This document shows positions 4,578-53,839 of a stretch of 64,000 bases of DNA, piece by piece; the stretch's first letter is position 1; each line of letters starts with the position of its first letter. This stretch comes from Emticicia oligotrophica DSM 17448 (GTDB lineage: Bacteria > Bacteroidota > Bacteroidia > Cytophagales > Spirosomataceae). The stretch spans positions 124,001 to 188,000 of the forward strand of contig NC_018748.1 in the NCBI RefSeq assembly GCF_000263195.1, given 5' to 3'. The position numbers and the translations under genes are program-made. The notes under the pieces were generated by a model. The model saw only the letters and a list, made by a program, of their open reading frames with translations. It was not told where the DNA came from and searched no databases.

Positions 4578-5435
4578 ATGAAATCTATTATTTATGCCTC
4601 GCTTATTTCTTTTCTTCTTTTTGCTTGTAATAGTAAAAAACAAGAAAACACAACCGATACAACCATAGTTACTGATACATTAGCTCAAGTAATTGACCCT
4701 TCGACCGAAACGAATGGCGAAATACTTGCTTTTGGATTTACGAATGAAAATGGTAATAAAGTCATTGCTTTTGAAGAAGGTATGAACAGCCAATCACTAA
4801 CAAATGTGATTGATAATCATGGAAATAACTACGAGCTTGTTTATGAAAATATTCAAAAAGGCAACGAAAATGGAGTAAATTTAATACCAAGTAATTTCAA
4901 TGATTGTGCAGGTGAGGTCTATAAATTAAAAGGTAATAAAAAACTAAACCCTGACTATTCAACCGTTTTGGTCAATGCTGCTTTTCTAGAAACTCGAAAA
5001 ACCCTCCCAATTAAATCATTTAATCAACCTGAACAAATTGATGAGAGTAATAAATTATCAATTCAAAATGATAAAAAACGCAAAATTAAACAAGCTTGGA
5101 AAATTGCAGAGATAAATAACCAACAAGCTTTTATTGTAATCTTCGAACCTAAAAAAGATAGTGTATTGGCAAGCTTAGTTATTGGTGGTGAAAAGCTTAT
5201 TTATCGAGATTATCCCGCTAAATACGACGAAGGCTCAACTTGGCGAGTTGACGACGGAGGCGAATTTCCGAATGATGCTATAAAAATCATTGGTGCATTT
5301 TTAAATGCTAATAATGAATTAGAAATTGTCATTGACTGGCAAGGAGCCGAGGGAGCCAATATTGAGTATGCAAGAGCAAATTCGAATGTGTTTGAAACGG
5401 TGAAAGAGGGAGCAAGATATTGGGGTGCTCTTTAA
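4578..5435 (+). CDS. Putative lipoprotein of unknown function
   Basis: I do not recognise this 285-residue protein. It has a lipoprotein signal with a lipobox cysteine at residue 17 (SFLLFACNSKK), a Thr/Asp-rich linker (about 22-45), and a globular domain rich in beta strands and Asn/Lys. That domain carries YRDYPAKYDEGSTWRVDDGGEFP and later EIVIDWQGAEGANIEYA. It follows the GH113-like gene after 12 nt and precedes another secreted protein after 39 nt, so the three are probably co-transcribed and act in the cell envelope. Confidence 0.75.
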   Translation: MKSIIYASLISFLLFACNSKKQENTTDTTIVTDTLAQVIDPSTETNGEILAFGFTNENGNKVIAFEEGMNSQSLTNVIDNHGNNYELVYENIQKGNENGVNLIPSNFNDCAGEVYKLKGNKKLNPDYSTVLVNAAFLETRKTLPIKSFNQPEQIDESNKLSIQNDKKRKIKQAWKIAEINNQQAFIVIFEPKKDSVLASLVIGGEKLIYRDYPAKYDEGSTWRVDDGGEFPNDAIKIIGAFLNANNELEIVIDWQGAEGANIEYARANSNVFETVKEGARYWGAL

Positions 5436-5474
5436 ATTCAATTAACTTTTTAGAAAAATAAAACATCAACTAAA

Positions 5475-6071
5475 ATGAACAATAAGTATTTCTTTTTCTG
5501 CTTAATTATTAGCTTTTCCACTTATGCTCAACAAATTACAAGCAAACCCATCGAAAAAGAGGAATTAAAGAATTTTATTGATAATAAAGCTAAAGTATTA
5601 AAAGCACTTAAATTTAATGATAAAAATGGTGTAAACTTTTTTACCATAACCCTAAAAGAGGAACGAAAATATGATTTAGTTTCAAGAACGCTCTTGGTTC
5701 AACACAGAATTGAAAAAAACAAAGGTGATTATGCACTACTCCGTCAGGTAGTTGATTACGAAAAAGAATGCCCCTTTGATAACGAGTTGGACCTAATTGA
5801 TAAATCATTAATAATAAGCGACTTAGATAAAAATAATCTTGCAGAAATTAGCTTTATGTATAAAATTGGTTGTAGAAGTGATGTGAGCCCAATTGATATA
5901 AAATTGATGGTTATTGAAAACGGAAATAAAGCGGCTATCCGAGGCATGACTTCTATAACAGGAATCAATGAACCTAAAGTAAAAACACCTGATTTGGCCT
6001 TTAAAAAATTGCCAAAACCAATTCAAGAACAGGCCAATAAAATTTGGGCAAAATTTGAACATGAATTCTAA
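5475..6071 (+). CDS. Secreted protein of unknown function (M949_RS01915-like)
   Basis: The 198-residue protein has a signal peptide ([18 protein letters not shown], mature from QQITS) and one alpha/beta domain. The block [20 protein letters not shown] followed by [13 protein letters not shown] resembles the Bacteroidetes M949_RS01915 family named for surface polysaccharide biosynthesis in Riemerella. I assign that from memory of the motif, with low certainty. No catalytic signature is visible. It ends the small envelope-protein run that starts with the GH113-like gene. Confidence 0.65.
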
Positions 6072-6138
6072 CATTGATAGTGCCTGTTAGCATTATCAAG
6101 GATTTCAGAATCACCAACAATAATTCGACATTTTTTCT

Positions 6139-6146
6139 TAATTTTG
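6139..6146 (+). promoter_or_regulatory. Candidate -7 element of prfC
   Basis: TAATTTTG matches the Bacteroidetes TAnnTTTG -7 consensus and lies 26 nt before the prfC ATG. I see no TTG at the expected -33 distance, so this is a half-promoter call. It argues against TTG-initiated translation from 6074, which would lie upstream of the promoter. Confidence 0.4.
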
Positions 6147-6172
6147 CACTCGTTTTACAAAAAAAGTCCAAA

Positions 6173-7768
6173 ATGTCATTTATAGAAGAGTTACACAAAC
6201 GCCGCACGTTTGCTATCATTGCTCACCCCGATGCTGGTAAAACTACCCTTACAGAAAAACTCCTACTTTTTGGTGGAGCTATTCAAACTGCTGGTGCTGT
6301 AAAATCAAATAAAATCAAGAAGTCTACTACTTCTGACTTCATGGAAATTGAGAAACAACGTGGTATTTCGGTTGCTACTTCGGTAATGACATTTGAATAC
6401 CGCGAACTCAAAATCAACATTCTTGATACTCCTGGCCACAAAGATTTCGCGGAAGATACCTACCGTACATTAACGGCTGTTGATAGTGTAATCTTAGTAA
6501 TCGACTGTGTAAAAGGCGTAGAGGAACAAACTGAAAGGCTGATGGAAGTTTGTAGAATGCGTAAAACACCTGTTATTATTTTCATCAACAAAATGGACCG
6601 TGAAGGACAAAATCCATTTGATTTATTAGATGAATTAGAGCAAAAGTTAGATTTACGAGTTCGCCCAATTACTTGGCCAGTTAATGGTGGTTCGAATTTC
6701 AAAGGTGTTTATCACTTACTTGAGAAAAAAATGAATCATTTTGCTGTGAATAAAACTCGCTTAGAAGATGATATTGATGTTATCGAGTTAGATTCAGAGG
6801 TTCTTGACCAAAAAGTTGGAGCCAAAGACGCTGCTCAATTACGTGAAGATGTTGAGTTAATTGACGGAATATATGACACTTTTGATAAAGATGCCTATTT
6901 AAAGGGAGATTTAGCCCCAGTTTTCTTTGGAAGTGCGGTAAGTAATTTCGGTGTCATGGAATTATTAAATACTTTCTGTGATGTTTCTCCACTGCCTGTT
7001 CATCGCATGACTGATAAAAGAATGGTTGAGCCTGAGGAAAAAAAATTTAGCGGATTCGTATTCAAAATTCACGCTAATATCGACCCTCGCCACCGTGATA
7101 GAATTGCATTTTTACGTATTTGCAGTGGCGAATTTAATCGTGGTAAATTCTACAAACACGTACGCCTAAACAAAGAAATGCGTTTTGCCAGTCCATTTGC
7201 ATTCTTGGCAGATAGAAAAGACGTAGTGGAAGATGCTTATCCAGGTGATGTAATTGGTCTATACGATACGGGTACTTTCAAAATTGGTGATACCTTAACT
7301 GAGGGAGAAGAGTTTCAATTTACTGGTATTCCGAGTTTCTCTCCAGAAATTTTCAAAGAGGTTATCAATAAAGACCCAATGAAATCTAAACAATTGGAAA
7401 AAGGCGTTCAACAATTAACAGATGAAGGAGTTGCCCAGTTGTTTACAATCCAACCCGGTAATCGAAAAATCATTGGGACAGTAGGAGAACTCCAATTTGA
7501 AGTAATTCAACATCGCTTATTAAATGAATACTCAGCCAGTTGTGTTTTTGAAGCCAGACCATACTCAAAAGCATGCTGGATAACGGCTGATGATAAAACT
7601 AAATTAGCGGAGTTTATTCGTCTAAAGAGCAATTTTATTGCTTATGATAAAGACGAAAATCCTGTATTCTTGGCAGAAACTGATTGGATTTTAAGAATGA
7701 ATATTCAAAATAATCCAGATATTCAGTTTCATACAACGTCAGAATTTAAAACTGCTTTACAATATTAA
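6173..7768 (+). CDS. prfC: Peptide chain release factor 3
   Basis: RF3 is the translational GTPase that removes RF1 and RF2 from the ribosome after peptide release. From the ATG at 6173 the protein is 531 residues, close to the 529 of E. coli RF3. It has the G1 loop AHPDAGKTT (residues 17-25), G2/switch I region with [12 protein letters not shown]3 DTPGHKDF, G4 INKMDREG, a beta-barrel domain II and a C-terminal RF3-specific domain. The frame stays open upstream to a TTG at 6074, but those codons overlap the end of the previous gene's region and are not RF3-like, so I reject that start. Confidence 0.96.
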
Positions 7769-14249: not shown

Positions 14250-15605
<1,356 letters not shown>

Positions 15606-15620
15606 CTATAAATCCGATAG
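15606..15620. promoter_or_regulatory. Candidate Rrf2 operator upstream of metY
   Basis: The palindromic 15-mer CTATAAATCCGATAG (CTAT-N7-ATAG) lies 67 nt before the metY start. Its minus strand, CTATCGGATTTATAG, matches 11 of 15 positions of the core of the inverted repeat that overlaps the -33 region of the TonB receptor promoter at 20346-20366. The binding protein is inferred only. Confidence 0.45.
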
Positions 15621-15684
15621 ACAAAGTAATAGATTATTTAAAATTATTCCTAAAAAACATCACTATATTTTTACTTAAGATTAT

Positions 15685-15708
15685 GGTAAGGTTTCTGAAA
15701 ACCTTACC
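15685..15708 (-). terminator. Hairpin after the sterol-desaturase gene
   Basis: A perfect 10-bp stem (GGTAAGGTTT with AAACCTTACC) and CTGA tetraloop lie 23 nt past the stop of the desaturase gene. There is no clear U-run on the minus strand, so it may stabilise mRNA or terminate weakly. Confidence 0.55.
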
Positions 15709-15730
15709 TAATGCTAGTTTAGCTTAATCA

Positions 15731-16978
15731 CTATTCAACCTTAACAAATAATTTCGACTCCAGATGCCCATAAATAAACCTTAAATAACTAACCTTTATC
15801 TTCGAAACAATATCAAAATCAAGGCTTAAAATGATGAGCGAGATAATTGCTATTATAGAAATTGTAGTTTGAGGGAAATACCATATAAATGGTAAAGATA
15901 CTATGGCAACCCTAACAAATTCGATGTAAAACACCCAACGTCTTTGCTCTAAAATTGCACCACAGTTGATTAATGTGGCAATAATGGTCAGTGCAATGAT
16001 GGTTTGCAAAAATATATTGATGTAATACTCGAAAAGTAAAAATATAAACAAAATCAGCAGCATCACACCCATCTGAATGAACACATATTGCTTGAATTTA
16101 TTGGAATGTATTCTTACTTTATACTTCGATAATATTTTATGCTCCATAATCGAACGAGCTTCTGGGTCAAAAGCAATTGGAGAACCAAAAATAACTTTCA
16201 GCTTATTTAGTAATCCTTGTTTTTTTGATACTGCGTATGCAATTTCAAACAAAAAATGAAAATGCTGCCACAAGAAACTTTTACTTTCCAATTGTTTAGT
16301 TAGACCATAAACTGGAGTTTCGGTTTTTTCTGCAAAAGTGCCGAAAAGTTTATCCCAAATAATAAACATATCGCCATAGTTTTTATCTAAATAAACTTCA
16401 TTACTGGCATGATGCACGCTATGATGAGTGGGTGTAACAATGATATATTCCAAGATTCCAAGTTTTCCGATGAGTTGTGTATGCGTAAAAAATGGGTAAA
16501 CGCCATGAACTATCAATAAAATGCTAATCATATGTGGTGGAAAACCGATGACAGGCAAGATTGACCAAAACAATGTTCGAACAACAGCTTGGAAAATGGT
16601 AATACGGGTAGCCGCCGAGTAATTAAATTCTTCACTCGAATGATGGACTACATGGAAACCCCAAAAAAGATTGATTTCGTGCCCAAAACGGTGATACCAA
16701 TACCAAATAAAATCAGTTGCTAAAAGCAAAGCAATCCAGAGTAAAATACTTGGTTTAATATCGAAAATAGCAAAATGCTTATGCAAATAAGCATAAAAGA
16801 AATAGAACCCTCCCGCCGTGAAAGAATCAATCAATCGCTCAGCAACTCCTACATTCAAATTGGCAATGGTCGTACTGAAACTATACAATTTAAGTCCTTT
16901 TCGCTTGGCAATGTAATATTCTAAAACAATAAAAAACAAGAAAAAAGGAATGGCAAAGGCAAAGATATTGTATTTCAT
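15731..16978 (-). CDS. Sterol desaturase / fatty acid hydroxylase family membrane protein
   Basis: This 415-residue membrane protein carries the histidine box pattern of the di-iron fatty acid hydroxylase superfamily: HRFGH (H96, H100), HVVHH (109-113), H166 and HHSVHH (185-190). Family members hydroxylate or desaturate lipids in the membrane using O2 and iron. The first 200 residues match the family core. The last 115 residues add a set of hydrophobic segments (about 300-395) that short family members lack. The Rrf2 paralogue starts 22 nt upstream, so regulator and enzyme form an operon and the regulator probably controls it. The lipid substrate is unknown. Confidence 0.87.
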   Translation of the reverse strand: MKYNIFAFAIPFFLFFIVLEYYIAKRKGLKLYSFSTTIANLNVGVAERLIDSFTAGGFYFFYAYLHKHFAIFDIKPSILLWIALLLATDFIWYWYHRFGHEINLFWGFHVVHHSSEEFNYSAATRITIFQAVVRTLFWSILPVIGFPPHMISILLIVHGVYPFFTHTQLIGKLGILEYIIVTPTHHSVHHASNEVYLDKNYGDMFIIWDKLFGTFAEKTETPVYGLTKQLESKSFLWQHFHFLFEIAYAVSKKQGLLNKLKVIFGSPIAFDPEARSIMEHKILSKYKVRIHSNKFKQYVFIQMGVMLLILFIFLLFEYYINIFLQTIIALTIIATLINCGAILEQRRWVFYIEFVRVAIVSLPFIWYFPQTTISIIAIISLIILSLDFDIVSKIKVSYLRFIYGHLESKLFVKVE

Positions 16979-46661: not shown

Positions 46662-47438
46662 CTACTTCGTAGCAACAAAAAAGAAATCAATGCATTTTTC
46701 AGGTTCATTCGAAACATGAAAATCGTTTACATCAATAGAAGCAGCCAAACTACCTGTTTCAGCCATTAATTTATTTCTATTAAAACGATTCAATATTTCA
46801 TAAGGTACTCTAAGCATCCAAGCTGGCAAACGATGTTGCAAATCGAAAATATCAAAACGCATGATTTTATTCACCGATTGCTTATTTTCTTCGTAATAAT
46901 CCCATACTTTTTTGTTACCTCCTACACCCATAGTTTCGACTTTCGAGAAATACTTTTGCATTAGAGTACGTAATTCTTGCGTGTCATATTCACGTACGTG
47001 CCAAGGATTACGGCTCAACGAGTAAGGGCGATTAACAGTAGTTAGCAAAACTTTGCCATTAGGTTTCAAAACACGGGCTATTTCTGCTAAAAATTTATGG
47101 TCATCCTGAATATGTTCAATTACTTGGAAAGTAACTACGTAATCAAACGTATTATCTTGAAATGCGGTCAAGTGCGGTAAATCAGCCGTACGAAACGTAT
47201 GATTCGGGTAAGCCGCTTGTAGTTGGTCAATTAAAGGTTGATTTTTATCTAAACCTGTATAATGCTCACATTTTTCAATGAGTGTCTCAACGCCACGTCC
47301 CCAGCCACAGCCTAATTCTAATACATTTCCACTAATAATTTTTGCAGCTTCTACATAAGGAAAGTATAAGCGTTGATGAACAGGATTATCCGATGGAATT
47401 TCGGCACTTGTAATTTCGGTTGTTGCGTATTTACTCAC
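46662..47438 (-). CDS. Class I SAM-dependent methyltransferase
   Basis: The protein has the Rossmann SAM-binding motif NVLELGCGWGRGVE, a post-I acidic GLDKNQPL, a motif II-like FDYVVTFQVIEHI and an HFLAEI-like KFLAEIARVLKPNGKVLLTT. No substrate can be assigned. Two starts are possible. The frame opens with TTG at 47462, but that TTG lies in a TATCTTTG -7 box (47460-47467), so I choose the GTG at 47438 (258 aa). Its downstream neighbour is hemW. Confidence 0.85.
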   Translation of the reverse strand: MSKYATTEITSAEIPSDNPVHQRLYFPYVEAAKIISGNVLELGCGWGRGVETLIEKCEHYTGLDKNQPLIDQLQAAYPNHTFRTADLPHLTAFQDNTFDYVVTFQVIEHIQDDHKFLAEIARVLKPNGKVLLTTVNRPYSLSRNPWHVREYDTQELRTLMQKYFSKVETMGVGGNKKVWDYYEENKQSVNKIMRFDIFDLQHRLPAWMLRVPYEILNRFNRNKLMAETGSLAASIDVNDFHVSNEPEKCIDFFFVATK

Positions 47439-47459
47439 TTGCTTGATATTATTTTTTTG

Positions 47460-47467
47460 CAAAGATA
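47460..47467 (-). promoter_or_regulatory. Candidate -7 element of the methyltransferase gene
   Basis: On the minus strand it reads TATCTTTG, matching TAnnTTTG, and overlaps the TTG that would open the longer reading frame. No clear -33 TTG. Confidence 0.5.
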
Positions 47468-47579: not shown

Positions 47580-48926
47580 TTAATCTTGTCTCAACAAACT
47601 TACACCCATATTTAAACTAAATCCGGTAGTATGATACATGAAGTAATTATCAAGCGAGTGGCGTGAAGACAAAGAAAAAACGACGGATGGTTCAATCCAA
47701 AGAGCAATTTTATTATTTACTGGTTTACTCATTCGATACCCTAAGCGAGCATTAAAAGCTGGCTTATTGATAGCATCTGTTTGAATTCCTGCTCTAAAAC
47801 CCAACGAAAGTGCTTGTAATTTACGAATATCATAAAGTAAATCAGACTGAAGTTCCAAATATTGCCAGTTTTTACGTTCGCTATAAATAGAGTTAGCTGG
47901 TGAAACTTCAATGGTGTGTTCATCTATTAATTTTACTACCTTCTGATTCAAATCTGAAACCCCATAACTAATATTAGATTTACCAGCCATATAACTCAAT
48001 CCTGTACGAATATCTAATTTCTTTGTCAATGGATAAACAAAACCTAATTGTGCGGCAAAACTTAATCGATTTGAAGAACCATTTAAGTTATTGACCATGA
48101 AATTATCATTTCTATTAGGCGAAAAAACATAATAACTCAACATTGGACTTACATTTGCAAAGACTTCTGAAGGTGGAATAAAAACCATTCGTTCTCGACT
48201 AGGCTCTTCAATTTCATATGGTTCATTACTAGCAATTTGTATTTCAAGGATTTTATTAAAATTACCAAATTTAGCTTTTCTTGAGTCAAGAAATACTAAT
48301 TTCTCAAATTCAATCATTTTTGAGGTATTTAGACCTGCTTCTTTGCTTAATTCACCTTCAATTGGTGATTTTATTTCAATAGAACTTATTTCATTAATTA
48401 GTGTTGAATTTTTATTTTCTGCAATCGTTGGGGATTTAGTCGAGGAAACAACTGCTGAAGAATTCTCACTCACCACTCTTTCCTGATTTGGTTTTGCTAT
48501 TTTTGCTCGACTGGCAATTGCATCTCTCCTCTCATTTAATTCCACTAAGTTATTATCAGCCTTTTTAGCCTTTTCTCTATTGATATTTACTTCATTGTCA
48601 ATTATTTGTGTAGATTTAGTAGTCGATTTCGCACTCGTTTGTTTGGATGTAGTAGCATTTATAGTTTTTCCATTAAAGTTGGATACTTTCTTCGAATCAT
48701 CTAATAAACTTGATAGTAAATATCCCCCAAATAGAAATCCAAGCAAAATTCCAGCGGCTATACTCCTATTTCGAGTATTTGTCCACCAAATAAAAATTGT
48801 TCTTTTTTTCTGTTCGGGTTCTATTCGGGCTTGTATATTCGCCCACAAAATATCATTTGGCATTTCCTCAAAATCGTGGAAACGCTCATGGTATTCTTTT
48901 TCTAAATTATCTTCAAAGTTTTCCAT
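47580..48926 (-). CDS. Anti-sigma-like N-terminus fused to outer-membrane-barrel-like C-terminus
   Basis: The 448-residue protein follows the ECF sigma gene by 32 nt. Residues 1-54 are charged and cytoplasmic-like, a membrane helix lies at about 55-75 (AAGILLGFLFGGYLLSSLL), and residues 80-260 are a Ser/Thr/Lys-rich linker. The last 180 residues contain alternating strand segments (LSFAAQLGFVYPLTKKLDIRTGLSYMAG, LGFRAGIQTDAINKPAFNARLGYRM, YFMYHTTGFSLNMGVSLLR) like the PorT-type outer-membrane beta-barrel domain. The gene order and topology suggest an anti-sigma factor, but I see no zinc-binding anti-sigma motif. Confidence 0.6.
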   Translation of the reverse strand: MENFEDNLEKEYHERFHDFEEMPNDILWANIQARIEPEQKKRTIFIWWTNTRNRSIAAGILLGFLFGGYLLSSLLDDSKKVSNFNGKTINATTSKQTSAKSTTKSTQIIDNEVNINREKAKKADNNLVELNERRDAIASRAKIAKPNQERVVSENSSAVVSSTKSPTIAENKNSTLINEISSIEIKSPIEGELSKEAGLNTSKMIEFEKLVFLDSRKAKFGNFNKILEIQIASNEPYEIEEPSRERMVFIPPSEVFANVSPMLSYYVFSPNRNDNFMVNNLNGSSNRLSFAAQLGFVYPLTKKLDIRTGLSYMAGKSNISYGVSDLNQKVVKLIDEHTIEVSPANSIYSERKNWQYLELQSDLLYDIRKLQALSLGFRAGIQTDAINKPAFNARLGYRMSKPVNNKIALWIEPSVVFSLSSRHSLDNYFMYHTTGFSLNMGVSLLRQD

Positions 48927-48958
48927 TTTTTGGTAAACTGTTTTTTAAGATTTAAAAT

Positions 48959-49501
48959 CTAAGCCCTTATGCCTATTTTTTCAAGTTTTTTTCTCAATAT
49001 TTTTTTGGCAAAAAACAACTGAGATTTTGAGGTTCCCTCTGTAATATTGAGCATTTCACTAATTTCTTGGTGGGAAAATCCGTCAATTACAAACAAATTG
49101 AAAACCATCCTTGCTCCATCTGGAAGCTCGTTTACGGCGGTGAGCAATTCCATATTACTCATTTGAGAAATCACATCATCGGTTTCCCAATCTTTGGTTG
49201 GTATATCGTGTATTTCATCAATGTTTGTGAAGTTTACTTTCTTATGATAATAATCAATGCATACATTCACTACCACTCTCCTAATCCAGGCACTCATTTG
49301 TTCTGCACTTTTCAATTCGTTTAAATTCAAAAAGATTTTCACGAAAGCATCTTGTAATAAATCTTCAGCATCTTCACGATTTTTTGCATATCGTCGGCAA
49401 ATACCAAAAAAGCGACCTTTATACTGATGATAAAGTGCCGCTTGTGCCTTGGAATCTCTTCTTAGACACCCTTCTAATAATTGACGGTCGTTTGACTGCA
49501 C
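48959..49501 (-). CDS. ECF family RNA polymerase sigma factor
   Basis: The 180-residue protein has sigma region 2 (AALYHQYKGRFFGICRRYAKNREDAEDLLQDAFVKIFLNLNEL) and region 4 (ELPDGARMVFNLFVIDGFSHQEISEMLNITEGTSKSQL), with no region 3, as in ECF sigmas. It directs transcription of an extracytoplasmic-function regulon. The upstream neighbours encode surface proteins, and the downstream gene is a likely membrane regulator, so it probably responds to envelope signals. Confidence 0.93.
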   Translation of the reverse strand: MQSNDRQLLEGCLRRDSKAQAALYHQYKGRFFGICRRYAKNREDAEDLLQDAFVKIFLNLNELKSAEQMSAWIRRVVVNVCIDYYHKKVNFTNIDEIHDIPTKDWETDDVISQMSNMELLTAVNELPDGARMVFNLFVIDGFSHQEISEMLNITEGTSKSQLFFAKKILRKKLEKIGIRA

Positions 49502-49535
49502 AAAAGCTGGGTAAATGGTTTAGGCTATATAAATT

Positions 49536-50483
49536 TTAATTAAAGTTGATTGAAACTGTTGCCTTGATATATATCTTTTCTGAGCGAAAAAGCCCATATT
49601 CGAAAGTCTGAATGCCTTTTGGAGGTGTTGAAGACCTGAAGTAAATCAACCATTTATTGTTATTTTTTTCAATTCTAAGTGTACCTACTGATAGATTTTT
49701 GATAATTTTCAATTCTGCATTTTTATAATTCGTGCAAATTCGGTCGTTATCTAATACATTAAGCAATAAATCAGTATCAGTGGTATAACTTAAAATATTT
49801 ATCACATCATCAGTCATACCTTTCACACATTCTTCCGATTCCAAAACTGATACTTCTACTGGAGCCATTGGATTTTTTTTATTATTAATGCCTACTCTAT
49901 AAAAGAAAATATCATCGCCCATGAAGTCTTGATTGGAAGTATAAACTATTTTTTGATTGATTATTTCTACTTTACCATTTTTGGGGCGAATTTCAATGCT
50001 TAAAGAATTACTGTTGAAATCTCCACAAGTTTTATCATTTTCTAATACATTTATTTCTTTTGCTTTGCCTATTTCGGCTTCAATTTTATCGCCCAAAAGT
50101 CCTGCATTACAAGGCAAATCATTTAAACTTGCAACAAAATTCACTTTTATTTCTTCATTGACAGTTGTTCCGCTTAACTCTTTTCCACTTATTGTAAATG
50201 AATCATTCAAAGCATTTTGATTCGTTCGACGATAAAATACAAATCCATTTTCTAAAAACTTCGCTTCACCATTTTTAGGGACTTGACTCACTATTAATGC
50301 ATTTGCTGATTTAAGTTTTTCAAAAGACGTTGGGTCGATACTTAGATTAGATTCCTTTAAAGTATAGAAGGTACTGGTGGTATTTTCTCCTCCATTCATT
50401 ATCGTGCCTACACTATCTTCTTTTGCTACATCGCATGATAGTACAAGCCACCAAATCAATAAAATAAATAAAATTCGACCCAT
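49536..50483 (-). CDS. Lipoprotein with cadherin-like / Ig-like repeats
   Basis: The 315-residue protein has a lipoprotein signal (lipobox Cys 17, WWLVLSCDVAKE). Two tandem modules carry NVLENDKTCGDFNSNSLSI and LNVLDNDRICTNYKNAELKI, which match the DVLxND-type motif of cadherin-like tandem domains (PF17963-type). The cysteines in the two modules occupy the same place, suggesting repeats with one disulfide each or paired with VSVLESEECVK. It likely sits on the cell surface or in the periplasm. Position between the T9SS protein and sigma gene suggests one transcription unit. Confidence 0.72.
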   Translation of the reverse strand: MGRILFILLIWWLVLSCDVAKEDSVGTIMNGGENTTSTFYTLKESNLSIDPTSFEKLKSANALIVSQVPKNGEAKFLENGFVFYRRTNQNALNDSFTISGKELSGTTVNEEIKVNFVASLNDLPCNAGLLGDKIEAEIGKAKEINVLENDKTCGDFNSNSLSIEIRPKNGKVEIINQKIVYTSNQDFMGDDIFFYRVGINNKKNPMAPVEVSVLESEECVKGMTDDVINILSYTTDTDLLLNVLDNDRICTNYKNAELKIIKNLSVGTLRIEKNNNKWLIYFRSSTPPKGIQTFEYGLFRSEKIYIKATVSINFN

Positions 50484-50540
50484 TTTTGCTTCTTTTATGT
50501 ACTGACTGATTTCATTTCAAAAGGTTGGAAAACATTCAGA

Positions 50541-53500
50541 TTATTTTTTAATTATTTTTTTAACAACTCTCTTTGATTCTTTTTCTAACAACAATAAGTA
50601 AGTTCCTCCTTTAAGTGAACCCAAATCAAGGTAGTTTTGCTCAGCTTTTAAAATTCCCCAATCAATTACTTCACGTCCTAAAATATCCATTAGTCGAGCT
50701 CGGGTAGAGTTCGAATTAAATGAGCTTAAATTTACTTGTAATTGTTCCTCGGTGGGATTAGGATAAACCTCTACCTCAAAAGCCTCTTTTACTTCCCCTA
50801 CTCCTAAAATGGGTTCTACGATTATTTCAATGCTATTTGAGATTACAATACACCCCATTTTTGATAGCTGAATGGCATATTTTCCTGAATCTTGGACTTT
50901 TAATGAAGTTTGGGTTGCTTCTGCAATCAGTTTGGTATCTTTTAACCATTGGAAATCTACATTCGTACATCCCTCAACACTGAGCGTACTAATTTCATCG
51001 CTTTTTATAAATAATTTATCTGCATTGATTTTAGGAGGATTAATGAGTAAGAATTTGTCGTACTCTTCACTTGCACAACCTTTTAGATTAATCTCATCTG
51101 TTTCATTGATACATCCATCATCACGTTTAATAATTCCCTTGTAACGTGCTTTGTCTTTAATAAATATTTCGTTTGAATTTTGACCAACTATTGGCACATC
51201 ATTTTTCGTCCAAGTATAGTTGTATTTGGTATTTTGTTCAGTAAATACCTTAAAAGAATCTATTACACATCCCGAACCTGCGTAAGCATAGCCGAGGTTT
51301 AGCTTAAAATCATTCTTTCTTTCGTAATTAATGAATGAATTATAGTTACAGGTTTTTCCTGTATTAGGTTCTTTATATTGCACTGAAAAAGTATAAAAGC
51401 CTCCTTTGTTGACTCTTAGAAATGGCTGCGTCGCTTCTGGAATTATTTTATCATCTTTTCGCCAAATGATGCTCTCATAACCAAACCTTTGCACAAAAGA
51501 ATCATCAATTTTCAATAAAGCTTGAGCACCACAATTATCTTCTATTTTGGAAATTGGTAAAGATTTTGGAAAATCTTCAGCTACTATTTTATATTTACCA
51601 GAAGTATATGTTTTGTTTTCAGACGGAAAAAAAATGCTGACATTATATTCCCCAGTTATAATAGGTTTAAAATGAGCATTAGTAGAATCTTTGATTAATT
51701 GGCCATTCAAAAACCATTGAAATTTATTTTTAGGGTCATCAATAGGCATGTTATTATCATTTTCACCCCAAGTTGGTTTTAAAAAGGGAACAGGTTTACA
51801 GTAATCTTGGTCGTCATAAAAAATTCCTTTGGAAATTTGAAGAGCTAAACCGTTTTTAATGTTCACTTCATTTGATTCTTTTATGATATTACCCTCATCA
51901 TAATATCTTTTTACTTTATAAATACCATCGCTACTATAAAAATAATCTGAATTTGTATTTGTGTTAGGAGATACTACTTTTACCAATGTATCATTCCGAT
52001 ACCATTCAATTTTACCTTTTAAAAAAAATCTGTCATCAAAAGAGGTGATATATAAATATTTACCTTGATTAAAGATGCTAATTTGAACTGGAAATGGGTT
52101 AACACTTGGATAGATAAGAATCGTATTTGAGCTACTGACTTGGCAAGAAGTATTAGTTTTGTTGATTAATTTCAAACTATAATATCCTGCTTCTTTGGCT
52201 TGAAATAATGCTTGTGTAGCATTTGAAATTGCTTCTCCGTTTTTGTACCATTGATAATTGAAATTGTAATTGTCTAATATTGCATCTGATAATGTCAAAT
52301 TACCACTCAAATTATAATTTCTTATGATACTAACATTCTTATTGTTGCAACTACTTTCATAAAGTTCAACATTTGTTTTCAAAAAACCATAACTATTACC
52401 TACTCTTATATAACTTGTATAGCCTGAAACATAGATGTTTCTTTTCGAATCAATAGTCATAGAAGTAATATTTGTTGACGCACTGGTACTATTATCTACT
52501 TTTGGCGTTGCCGATATAAGTTTGCCTTGAGTATCAAACTTTACTATATATCGAAATAGACCATTTACATTAATTATTTCTTTTGATTCAATACTTAAAG
52601 AGTTTATCATAGTTCCAAAAATATAAGGCTCTCCATTAGTATTCAATTTTAATAGTTGTACTGTTGTAAAATGTGTTGCATCTATATCCTTTAGATAAGA
52701 TATATTCTTAACCCAGTCCATTTTTCCGTCAGTATCGTTAATTTTCGCTACAAAAATACTCTTTCCATTGGTAGTTTTGATATTGACATTTAACATATCG
52801 AACTTAGCATTATCAGACATAATTCCTGCCAAATATACATTGCCCAGTTTATCACTTTCAATATTATGGCATTTATCTTCAACTTTTCCAGCGATAGTTT
52901 TTACCCATAAAAATTGACCATTTTTATCGTATTTAGCATAAAAAATATCTTCTACTCCCTCAGATTCGAGGATATTTCCATTTATCGTTAAACTACCCTT
53001 GAAATCACCAACTATAAAAACCTCGCTTTTAGAATTAACACTTATGGCATTTAAAGCCAAGTTTTCATTAAATGATTTTGCCCAAATGTAATTTCCATTT
53101 CTATCTAATTTCAAGATATATGGTTCTGGGTTATTTCCGGTTGTTTTCAAGATTTGTTTACCTTCAACTTCCAAAGTATTTTTATATTTCCCTATTATAT
53201 GCAAATTCCCCTGACTATCAATTTTTGGCTTTAACGTTCCATCATCACTACTCCCAAGATATTTTTTTGCCCATTTCAATTTACCTTCACTAGTATATTT
53301 TGCAACAAAAATATCTCCTGTTGAACTGTACAATATATTATTAGAATCAAAAGTGATTTTCTGATAAAATTTACCAATTAGATAAACATTACTACTATCA
53401 TCTACCAATACATGATTTTTTGAACCTGCATTTTCAAATGTAATCAACCATTGAATTTCTTTATTAGGTTTAAATTTTGCTACAAATCCCCCAGAATTAT

Positions 53501-53738
53501 ACAACGTCTTTCTTATCAAATTTCTGTTTTCATAACTAATTGCTAATCCCCCTAAACTATCATTTTTATTATAAGACAAAAACACACCCGTGGTAATAAA
53601 GTTATCATCTTTATCAATCTCGACATCATGCACTCTACAATCTTTATAATTACCTCCAAAGTTAAACTCTACATCGCCTTGGCCAAAAGCGAGCTGAAAT
53701 AGATTAAAACATGCAACAACAAGATATATCTTTTTCAT
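50541..53738 (-). CDS. T9SS-secreted giant protein with propeller and Ig-like repeats
   Basis: The 1065-residue protein has a signal peptide (about 1-19, ending FGQGDV). About eight SBBP-like repeats follow (20-440), each with KFD/AKYD-x-G-x-WAK-type blades. Five Ig-like modules share a YxWxK(N/D)GxxIxxATQxx motif (FNYQWYKNGEAISNATQ, FQWFLNGQLIKDSTN, IIWRKDDKIIPEATQ, YTWTKNDVPIVGQ, FQWLKDTKLIAEATQ). A C-terminal T9SS type A sorting domain starts YPNPTEEQLQV. The tail is cleaved by the PorU-type sortase and the protein is secreted or surface-anchored. It probably acts as an adhesin or exposed sensor scaffold; no catalytic motif is visible. Confidence 0.86.
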   Translation of the reverse strand: MKKIYLVVACFNLFQLAFGQGDVEFNFGGNYKDCRVHDVEIDKDDNFITTGVFLSYNKNDSLGGLAISYENRNLIRKTLYNSGGFVAKFKPNKEIQWLITFENAGSKNHVLVDDSSNVYLIGKFYQKITFDSNNILYSSTGDIFVAKYTSEGKLKWAKKYLGSSDDGTLKPKIDSQGNLHIIGKYKNTLEVEGKQILKTTGNNPEPYILKLDRNGNYIWAKSFNENLALNAISVNSKSEVFIVGDFKGSLTINGNILESEGVEDIFYAKYDKNGQFLWVKTIAGKVEDKCHNIESDKLGNVYLAGIMSDNAKFDMLNVNIKTTNGKSIFVAKINDTDGKMDWVKNISYLKDIDATHFTTVQLLKLNTNGEPYIFGTMINSLSIESKEIINVNGLFRYIVKFDTQGKLISATPKVDNSTSASTNITSMTIDSKRNIYVSGYTSYIRVGNSYGFLKTNVELYESSCNNKNVSIIRNYNLSGNLTLSDAILDNYNFNYQWYKNGEAISNATQALFQAKEAGYYSLKLINKTNTSCQVSSSNTILIYPSVNPFPVQISIFNQGKYLYITSFDDRFFLKGKIEWYRNDTLVKVVSPNTNTNSDYFYSSDGIYKVKRYYDEGNIIKESNEVNIKNGLALQISKGIFYDDQDYCKPVPFLKPTWGENDNNMPIDDPKNKFQWFLNGQLIKDSTNAHFKPIITGEYNVSIFFPSENKTYTSGKYKIVAEDFPKSLPISKIEDNCGAQALLKIDDSFVQRFGYESIIWRKDDKIIPEATQPFLRVNKGGFYTFSVQYKEPNTGKTCNYNSFINYERKNDFKLNLGYAYAGSGCVIDSFKVFTEQNTKYNYTWTKNDVPIVGQNSNEIFIKDKARYKGIIKRDDGCINETDEINLKGCASEEYDKFLLINPPKINADKLFIKSDEISTLSVEGCTNVDFQWLKDTKLIAEATQTSLKVQDSGKYAIQLSKMGCIVISNSIEIIVEPILGVGEVKEAFEVEVYPNPTEEQLQVNLSSFNSNSTRARLMDILGREVIDWGILKAEQNYLDLGSLKGGTYLLLLEKESKRVVKKIIKK

Positions 53739-53805
53739 ATGTCTGAAATTAAAATGTTACTTGTATTCTTTGACTAAAAGTAACATCAATAGGTTGTAAA
53801 AGGTC

Positions 53806-53839
53806 AAAAAAAAACCTCAAACTTTCGTTTGAGGTTTTT
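53806..53839. terminator. Terminator of the ribosomal protein operon
   Basis: AACCTCAAAC pairs with GTTTGAGGTT around a TTTC loop, with A and T runs on either side. On the minus strand it closes the alpha operon 19 nt after rplQ; on the plus strand no gene needs it. Confidence 0.88.

Follow-up and report, generated by a model that had tools for sequence, protein, structure and literature searches.

The locus analyzed here lies in a window of 64,000 nucleotides of the Emticicia oligotrophica DSM 17448 genome and raises the question of whether adjacent genes for surface proteins, a sigma factor and an anti-sigma-like protein form one signaling system and, if so, which of these genes belong to it. 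Four genes on the minus strand, located after rplQ and a terminator-like hairpin followed by a T run (53805..53839, minus strand; z -4.30; absent from the consensus terminator scan), are separated by gaps of 57, 34 and 32 nt. The initial annotation had reported exactly these genes and gaps and had placed the surface proteins upstream of the sigma/anti-sigma-like pair, and both descriptions hold. The interpretation that we consider reasonably likely is that the locus encodes a switch from envelope to transcription built on a dual membrane-spanning anti-sigma, in which a dedicated lipoprotein is the third component and a T9SS-secreted protein is one output, and through which the cell would adjust its outer coat. 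A methyltransferase gene (46662-47462) was rejected as a member of the unit given the 117 nt gap that separates it from the cluster and its absence after the anti-sigma gene in the neighborhood tables.

The head gene (50541..53738, minus strand), which is lineage-specific, encodes a 1065-aa surface protein that consists of an SBBP propeller in approximately the N-terminal 445 residues, an array of Ig-like domains (both matched in the profile scan) and a type A sorting domain at residues 991-1065 (PF18962, 1.2e-10; TIGR04183, 37.7 bits against a cut-off of 23). SprA is encoded in the same genome (TIGR04189, 2239 bits); given this sign of a T9SS and its own C-terminal sorting domain, the protein has the attributes of a T9SS type A cargo, and the earlier description of a T9SS-secreted propeller/Ig protein is borne out. 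The second gene (49536..50483, minus strand) encodes a 315-aa lipoprotein (hereafter LIPO) with Big_9/cadherin-like domains (PF17963, 4.5e-10) and a lipid-carrying Cys17 that is invariant in 17/17 aligned relatives. The predicted structure of LIPO consists of tandem beta-sandwiches (mean pLDDT 78.6, pTM 0.65), and in a fold search of the PDB with this model, cadherins account for most of the best 50 matches, the top match being a GH107 enzyme, with TM-scores that, for chains of this length, reach only about 0.15-0.25. The designation of this protein as cadherin-like is thus valid at the level of the fold type, and the modeled beta-sandwich domains and cadherin-type matches would suit, without proving, a contact or adhesive role. 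The third gene (48959..49501, minus strand; GTG start) encodes a 180-aa ECF sigma factor (SIG), as originally annotated, with Sigma70 regions 2 and 4 above the cut-off (PF04542, 3.1e-14; PF08281, 5.3e-15) and a match to TIGR02937 (94.4 bits; cut-off 42.9).

The last protein of the cluster, a presumed dual membrane-spanning anti-sigma of 448 aa (DMA; 47580..48926, minus strand), shows a composite organization. In the alignment of 17 members, a conserved segment of approximately 45 residues (residues 1-45; 48792..48926, minus strand) with the motif F..FE..PD..LW..I, presumably sigma-binding, precedes the membrane helix; no curated family matched this segment in Pfam and NCBIfam scans. A single membrane helix is predicted from hydropathy (residues 55-75; 48702..48764, minus strand; peak 1.92 starting at residue 56). 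It is followed by a variable tether (residues about 76-250; 48177..48701, minus strand) that is poorly conserved, with gapped columns across the 17 members, and by a barrel-like domain (residues 251-448; 47583..48176, minus strand) with a weak match to PF13568 (19.3 bits, below the cut-off of 27); 11 of the 17 aligned members match this family at E<=0.01. The AlphaFold model of the window protein has a mean pLDDT of 32.5 and is of no use for assigning the fold. Accordingly, the proposal that this protein is a fusion of a membrane segment with an outer membrane protein stands with respect to the predicted helix and is weaker with respect to the barrel, whereas the suggestion that it reports the envelope state to the sigma factor fits its apparent anatomy of N-terminal segment, helix, tether and barrel-like end.

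A similar anatomy has been described for the Dma proteins, which combine an N-terminal sigma-binding part, a membrane helix, a long disordered tether and a C-terminal barrel (PMC13088901, as far as its accessible parts go). Judging from column variability, the corresponding region of DMA qualifies as such a tether; furthermore, DMA is encoded beside an ECF sigma gene in 38/39 loci and in 6/6 additional ones (see below). Further traits of the family are a cognate sigma of group ECF21 and the release of that sigma when the Dma protein is lost. DMA is likely a member of the Dma family. The SIG/DMA pair, compared by description, resembles Dma/Das of Bacteroides thetaiotaomicron in the position of the sigma gene beside a Dma-type protein and in the small operon with an extra gene, and appears to be the already known part of the system; therefore, the view that the arrangement is not a standard one does not hold for a sigma gene next to a membrane-spanning anti-sigma with a barrel. 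An ECF sigma gene adjoining a membrane-spanning partner would also be compatible with classical FecI/FecR-like cell-surface signaling, the barrel being a receptor for an imported ligand, but no match to FecR or to a TonB-dependent receptor was detected among the seven locus proteins scanned (those of the four genes and three neighbors), which makes this explanation highly improbable.

Comparison of gene neighborhoods shows that the evolutionarily kept unit is LIPO-SIG-DMA, that is, three genes rather than four. In the 181 genomes of the family with completeness of at least 90%, the LIPO profile yields 36 full hits at 288 bits or more, clearly separated from the next ones (79 bits or less; Big_9 domains), and in 36/36 cases, SIG and then DMA are located directly downstream on the same strand. 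The inspected set comprised 39 loci, namely, these 36, L066 and L074 from less complete genomes, and L077, which belongs to another family; 38 have the order LIPO-SIG-DMA, the sole exception being L077 where LIPO occurs without SIG and without DMA. Only 17 of these 39 loci contributed rows to the LIPO model, and the trio is present in 22/22 loci outside it (L145-L166). In an order-wide search of 391 genomes (E<=1e-30), LIPO has matches in 21 genomes, 7 of them outside the family. One of these 7 is the genome of L077 (G036), itself a row of the model; in the other six, which represent two families and are not included in the model, SIG and DMA come next in 6/6 cases (DMA is cut by the contig end in two). 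Approached from the DMA side, 36 of the 37 hits with at least 183 bits in the 181 genomes adjoin LIPO, in a sample that is biased because most of the sequences behind the DMA model came from trio loci; the 37th hit is a remnant in one Emticicia genome (G009). At the rplQ site of that genome (L070:9388-10400), only this DMA remnant is found, with stop codons within the match, and both LIPO and SIG are absent. The trio is missing in G006 and G009, the former being a 90%-complete draft in which the absence may reflect a gap. Outside Emticicia, the called frames of SIG and DMA (longest-ORF starts) overlap in 27/27 trio loci. A phylum-wide search of 392 genomes (E<=1e-25) recovered only the LIPO of the window and a single domain-level match, located in a 1383-aa frame of G734; this draw contains few genomes of the order and does not contradict the results for the family and the order. 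All counts over relatives are not independent. Conservation of gene order, which was to be checked in related genomes, is thus found for LIPO-SIG-DMA and does not extend to the T9SS gene.

In 7 of the 11 Emticicia loci (window, L063, L065, L066, L067, L069 and L071), the cluster begins with the T9SS gene, the sorting domain scoring above the Pfam cut-off in all 7, and in the remaining 4, the upstream gene is divergent. Outside Emticicia, such a head was found in 0/27 trio loci: 24 have a same-strand upstream gene, none with a sorting domain in the scan, and 3 have a divergent one. These 24 genes include 9 for PepSY-like lipoproteins (2 of these below the Pfam cut-off), the others being mostly GMC oxidoreductases, patatins and further unrelated genes. 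On these counts, the T9SS gene was rejected as a constant fourth member. The T9SS proteins encoded at the rplQ site have in common the C-terminal 290-600 residues and differ between species at the N-terminus (window 50541-53738; L065:9278-12421; L066:8023-11178; L067:9452-11341; L071:3603-5708). The head is an SBBP propeller in the window and a Vps10-type propeller in two other loci (above the cut-off in L066 and below it in L065); in L067 and L071, no propeller was recognized by the Pfam scan. In Emticicia loci that lack a T9SS head, related T9SS or SBBP genes are found at a distance of several kb on the upstream side or immediately after DMA (L061:16709-19798, 14635-16692 and 5203-6735; L062:13682-15211).

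The T9SS gene is linked to the trio by a promoter-like signature, CAACC..TTT...GTCA, that is present before LIPO (CAACCTTTT-N12-GTC; 50504..50527, minus strand, within the T9SS-LIPO gap) and again before the T9SS gene (CAACCTATT-N13-GTC; 53772..53796, minus strand). Of 68 upstream regions, 36 contain the pattern AACC-N16/17/18-GTC, whereas none contains AACC and GTC at spacings 12-15, 19 or 20. For spacing 16, the shuffle test gives 5 observed matches against a mean of 0.57 and a maximum of 3; for spacings 17 and 18, the control is the absence at the neighboring spacings. Counted by locus, the site precedes LIPO or the head gene in 31/38 cases. Of the other seven loci, L146, L155, L160 and L161 have a site roughly 30-85 nt upstream of the position at which the profile match places the start of LIPO, the longest-ORF start being too far upstream; in L072, L157 and L164, there is no site close to LIPO. 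The six loci outside the family have no AACC site, and in four of these, an AAC-N18-GTC match is found. In the 7 Emticicia cases measured, 19-21 nt separate the end of the strict site from LIPO, and the T9SS gene is preceded by a site in 7/7 T9SS-headed loci (six AACC and one AACT variant). When both strands of the 64-kb window were scanned with a matrix derived from 11 sites in other genomes, the two sites of the cluster ranked first and second (31.2 and 22.6; next 20.0). Because the same signature precedes LIPO and the T9SS gene, the latter is probably a target of SIG and not merely part of one operon.

These sites also bear on the transcriptional organization, which had been proposed to be a single operon. 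The gaps are short, and no terminator-like site was detected in the T9SS-LIPO gap in the consensus scan, so that read-through from the T9SS gene into LIPO is possible; however, because separate promoter-like sites precede the T9SS gene and LIPO, a single, simple four-gene operon appears doubtful. A stronger form of the operon view holds that the four genes are transcribed together, constitutively or by a housekeeping sigma, and that the boxes serve another ECF sigma or persist by descent without a function. The location of all genes on one strand, the lack of terminator-like sites between them on the minus strand in addition to the short gaps, and the occurrence of similar boxes at paralogous sigma loci and at a gene that keeps its box in genomes without the trio are compatible with this scenario, but it is improbable considering the fixed spacing of the boxes in so many loci, the enrichment of the strict pattern only in genomes with the trio, and the number of sigma-70-like sites in the region which is near the shuffled level (42 vs 37.3).

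With respect to this enrichment, in the 9 Emticicia genomes with the trio, the strict pattern matches 45 times and its reversed control 14 times, compared with 1 match, in G009, and 11 control matches in the 2 genomes without it; the Fisher p value of 1.6e-5 treats orthologous sites as independent and hence overstates the difference. The cluster's own sites account for 12 of the 45 matches. Other strict sites precede lipoprotein-like genes in G001, G002, G003, G008 and E. oligotrophica itself, such genes being recognized by visual inspection of the signal region and the cysteine, with downstream genes read at 44 of the 46 strict places. In the E. oligotrophica genome, the loose pattern shows no enrichment (34 matches vs 45 reversed), so these matches are mostly due to chance and a large regulon was rejected; in a ranking of 30 of the 34 loose sites by a matrix built with the window sites among its inputs, the LIPO site came first and the T9SS site fourth. 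A gene which we take to be LytTR-like (weak NCBIfam match) keeps a site in 11/11 genomes of the genus, including the two without the trio (GTCA in 8, GTCT in one, and GTCC in the two that lack the trio), and this presence in all genomes precludes its use as clean proof of a regulon. In the E. oligotrophica genome, two other sigma/DMA loci also contain AACC-N17-GTC, in one case before a lipoprotein gene and in the other before the sigma gene. Because the LytTR-like gene, also in genomes without the trio, and these loci have such AACC-GTC sites, other sigmas may read them as well. A strict site at a presumably DUF1456-like gene in G000, G004, G010 and G009 was set aside, given that only 3 nt separate its end from the ATG and that one of these genomes lacks the trio. 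A further ECF sigma gene of the E. oligotrophica genome (C5 3900984-3901478) has in its vicinity two variant sites, TGCAACCATTT...CGTC (L207 and L208; C5 3902436 and 3902914), which precede genes for a small lipoprotein and for a protein that we assume to be DsbD-like.

The paralogous sigma/DMA loci differ from the trio in their secreted neighbors. One paralogue (L060:7117-11022, at C5 about 1.0 Mb of the E. oligotrophica genome; also L079:7831-11811) consists of a lipoprotein, PepSY-like in L060, an ECF sigma factor and a DMA of ~600 aa in which the presumed sigma-binding motif, F..FE.EP...SW, is repeated in tandem at the N-terminus, as if this protein were able to hold several sigma molecules. 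A further sigma/DMA pair (L167:3370-6365; L171:5270-8321) is located behind a 241-aa secreted protein, which has no Pfam match in L167, with an AACC-N17-GTCTT site before the sigma gene; G006 possesses a pair of this type and has no LIPO hit. In genera g17, g19 and g49 and in G199, a same-strand gene of ~170-260 aa follows DMA (L075:4721-5425; L076:14008-14580; L145, L147-L155 and L160), the product of which, where the start is seen, has the look of a secreted, low-complexity protein and, in the one case scanned (L076), has no Pfam match.

Such variety of neighbors is compatible with an alternative role for LIPO, namely, that of an adhesin or matrix lipoprotein that is the most constant product of SIG, encoded beside its regulator and taking no part in signaling, with DMA sensing the outer membrane alone. 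The cadherin-like fold, common in adhesion, the position of LIPO as the first gene behind the promoter-like site, and the occurrence of other secreted neighbors, the PepSY-like lipoprotein or the 241-aa protein, in the other sigma/DMA loci of the same genome all fit this possibility, which we can endorse only tentatively; a mere target would be expected to be exchanged or lost at times, like the T9SS head, but LIPO stays beside nearly all strong DMA hits, within the bias of that sample.

Under the preferred reading, that of a switch with LIPO as the third component, the barrel of DMA would reside in the outer membrane, with the tether passing through the periplasm, the helix in the inner membrane and the N-terminus in the cytoplasm where, judging from the anatomy and by analogy with Dma1/Dma2, it would hold SIG. 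The lipid-anchored LIPO would touch either the barrel or an external partner, thereby conveying the condition of the outer membrane or the cell surface. A change of state of the barrel, together with LIPO, would cause DMA to let SIG go, and the freed SIG would then transcribe from the CAACC..TTT...GTCA sites, that is, the LIPO-SIG-DMA genes, in Emticicia also the T9SS gene, and perhaps a few other envelope lipoprotein genes. The self-regulation proposed here is comparable with the B. thetaiotaomicron Dma2/Das2 system where, as reported in the accessible parts of the study, the dma2 operon and its neighbors are among the most changed genes in a dma2 mutant, the dma2 operon being among the most strongly induced (PMC13088901). 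The outputs reported there are vesicle formation and polysaccharide loci, and the extra gene, BT_1557, is described as having an unknown function (PMC13088901, same parts); in contrast, Emticicia has a cadherin-like lipoprotein before the sigma gene and a T9SS gene with the same promoter-like site. ECF-type promoters have been tied to T9SS genes in other Bacteroidota, through ECF control in Porphyromonas gingivalis and the motif SM6 with a CGT -10 box in Flavobacterium psychrophilum, but there, so far as the consulted portion of the source indicates, it is the secretion machinery that is controlled, whereas in Emticicia it would be the secreted cargo (PMC9723704). Searches of the open PubMed Central literature listed no paper on a lipoprotein partner, this promoter-like site or a T9SS cargo for a Dma-type system; as far as this literature goes, what is new is the lipoprotein as a constant component, together with the promoter-like site and the output through T9SS.

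Altogether, LIPO, kept together with one branch of DMA in at least three families, becomes a concrete candidate for a sensor or ligand, and the promoter-like site offers a reporter with which this role can be tested. A possible, still speculative, extension is that the trio is a three-component surface or contact switch of Cytophagales in which the cadherin-like LIPO would be an obligatory ligand or gate of DMA, and the Emticicia T9SS proteins with their exchangeable heads would be the output. If this three-component interpretation is correct, an event at the cell surface would set transcription across both membranes, and the locus would tie T9SS-dependent surface display to envelope sensing.
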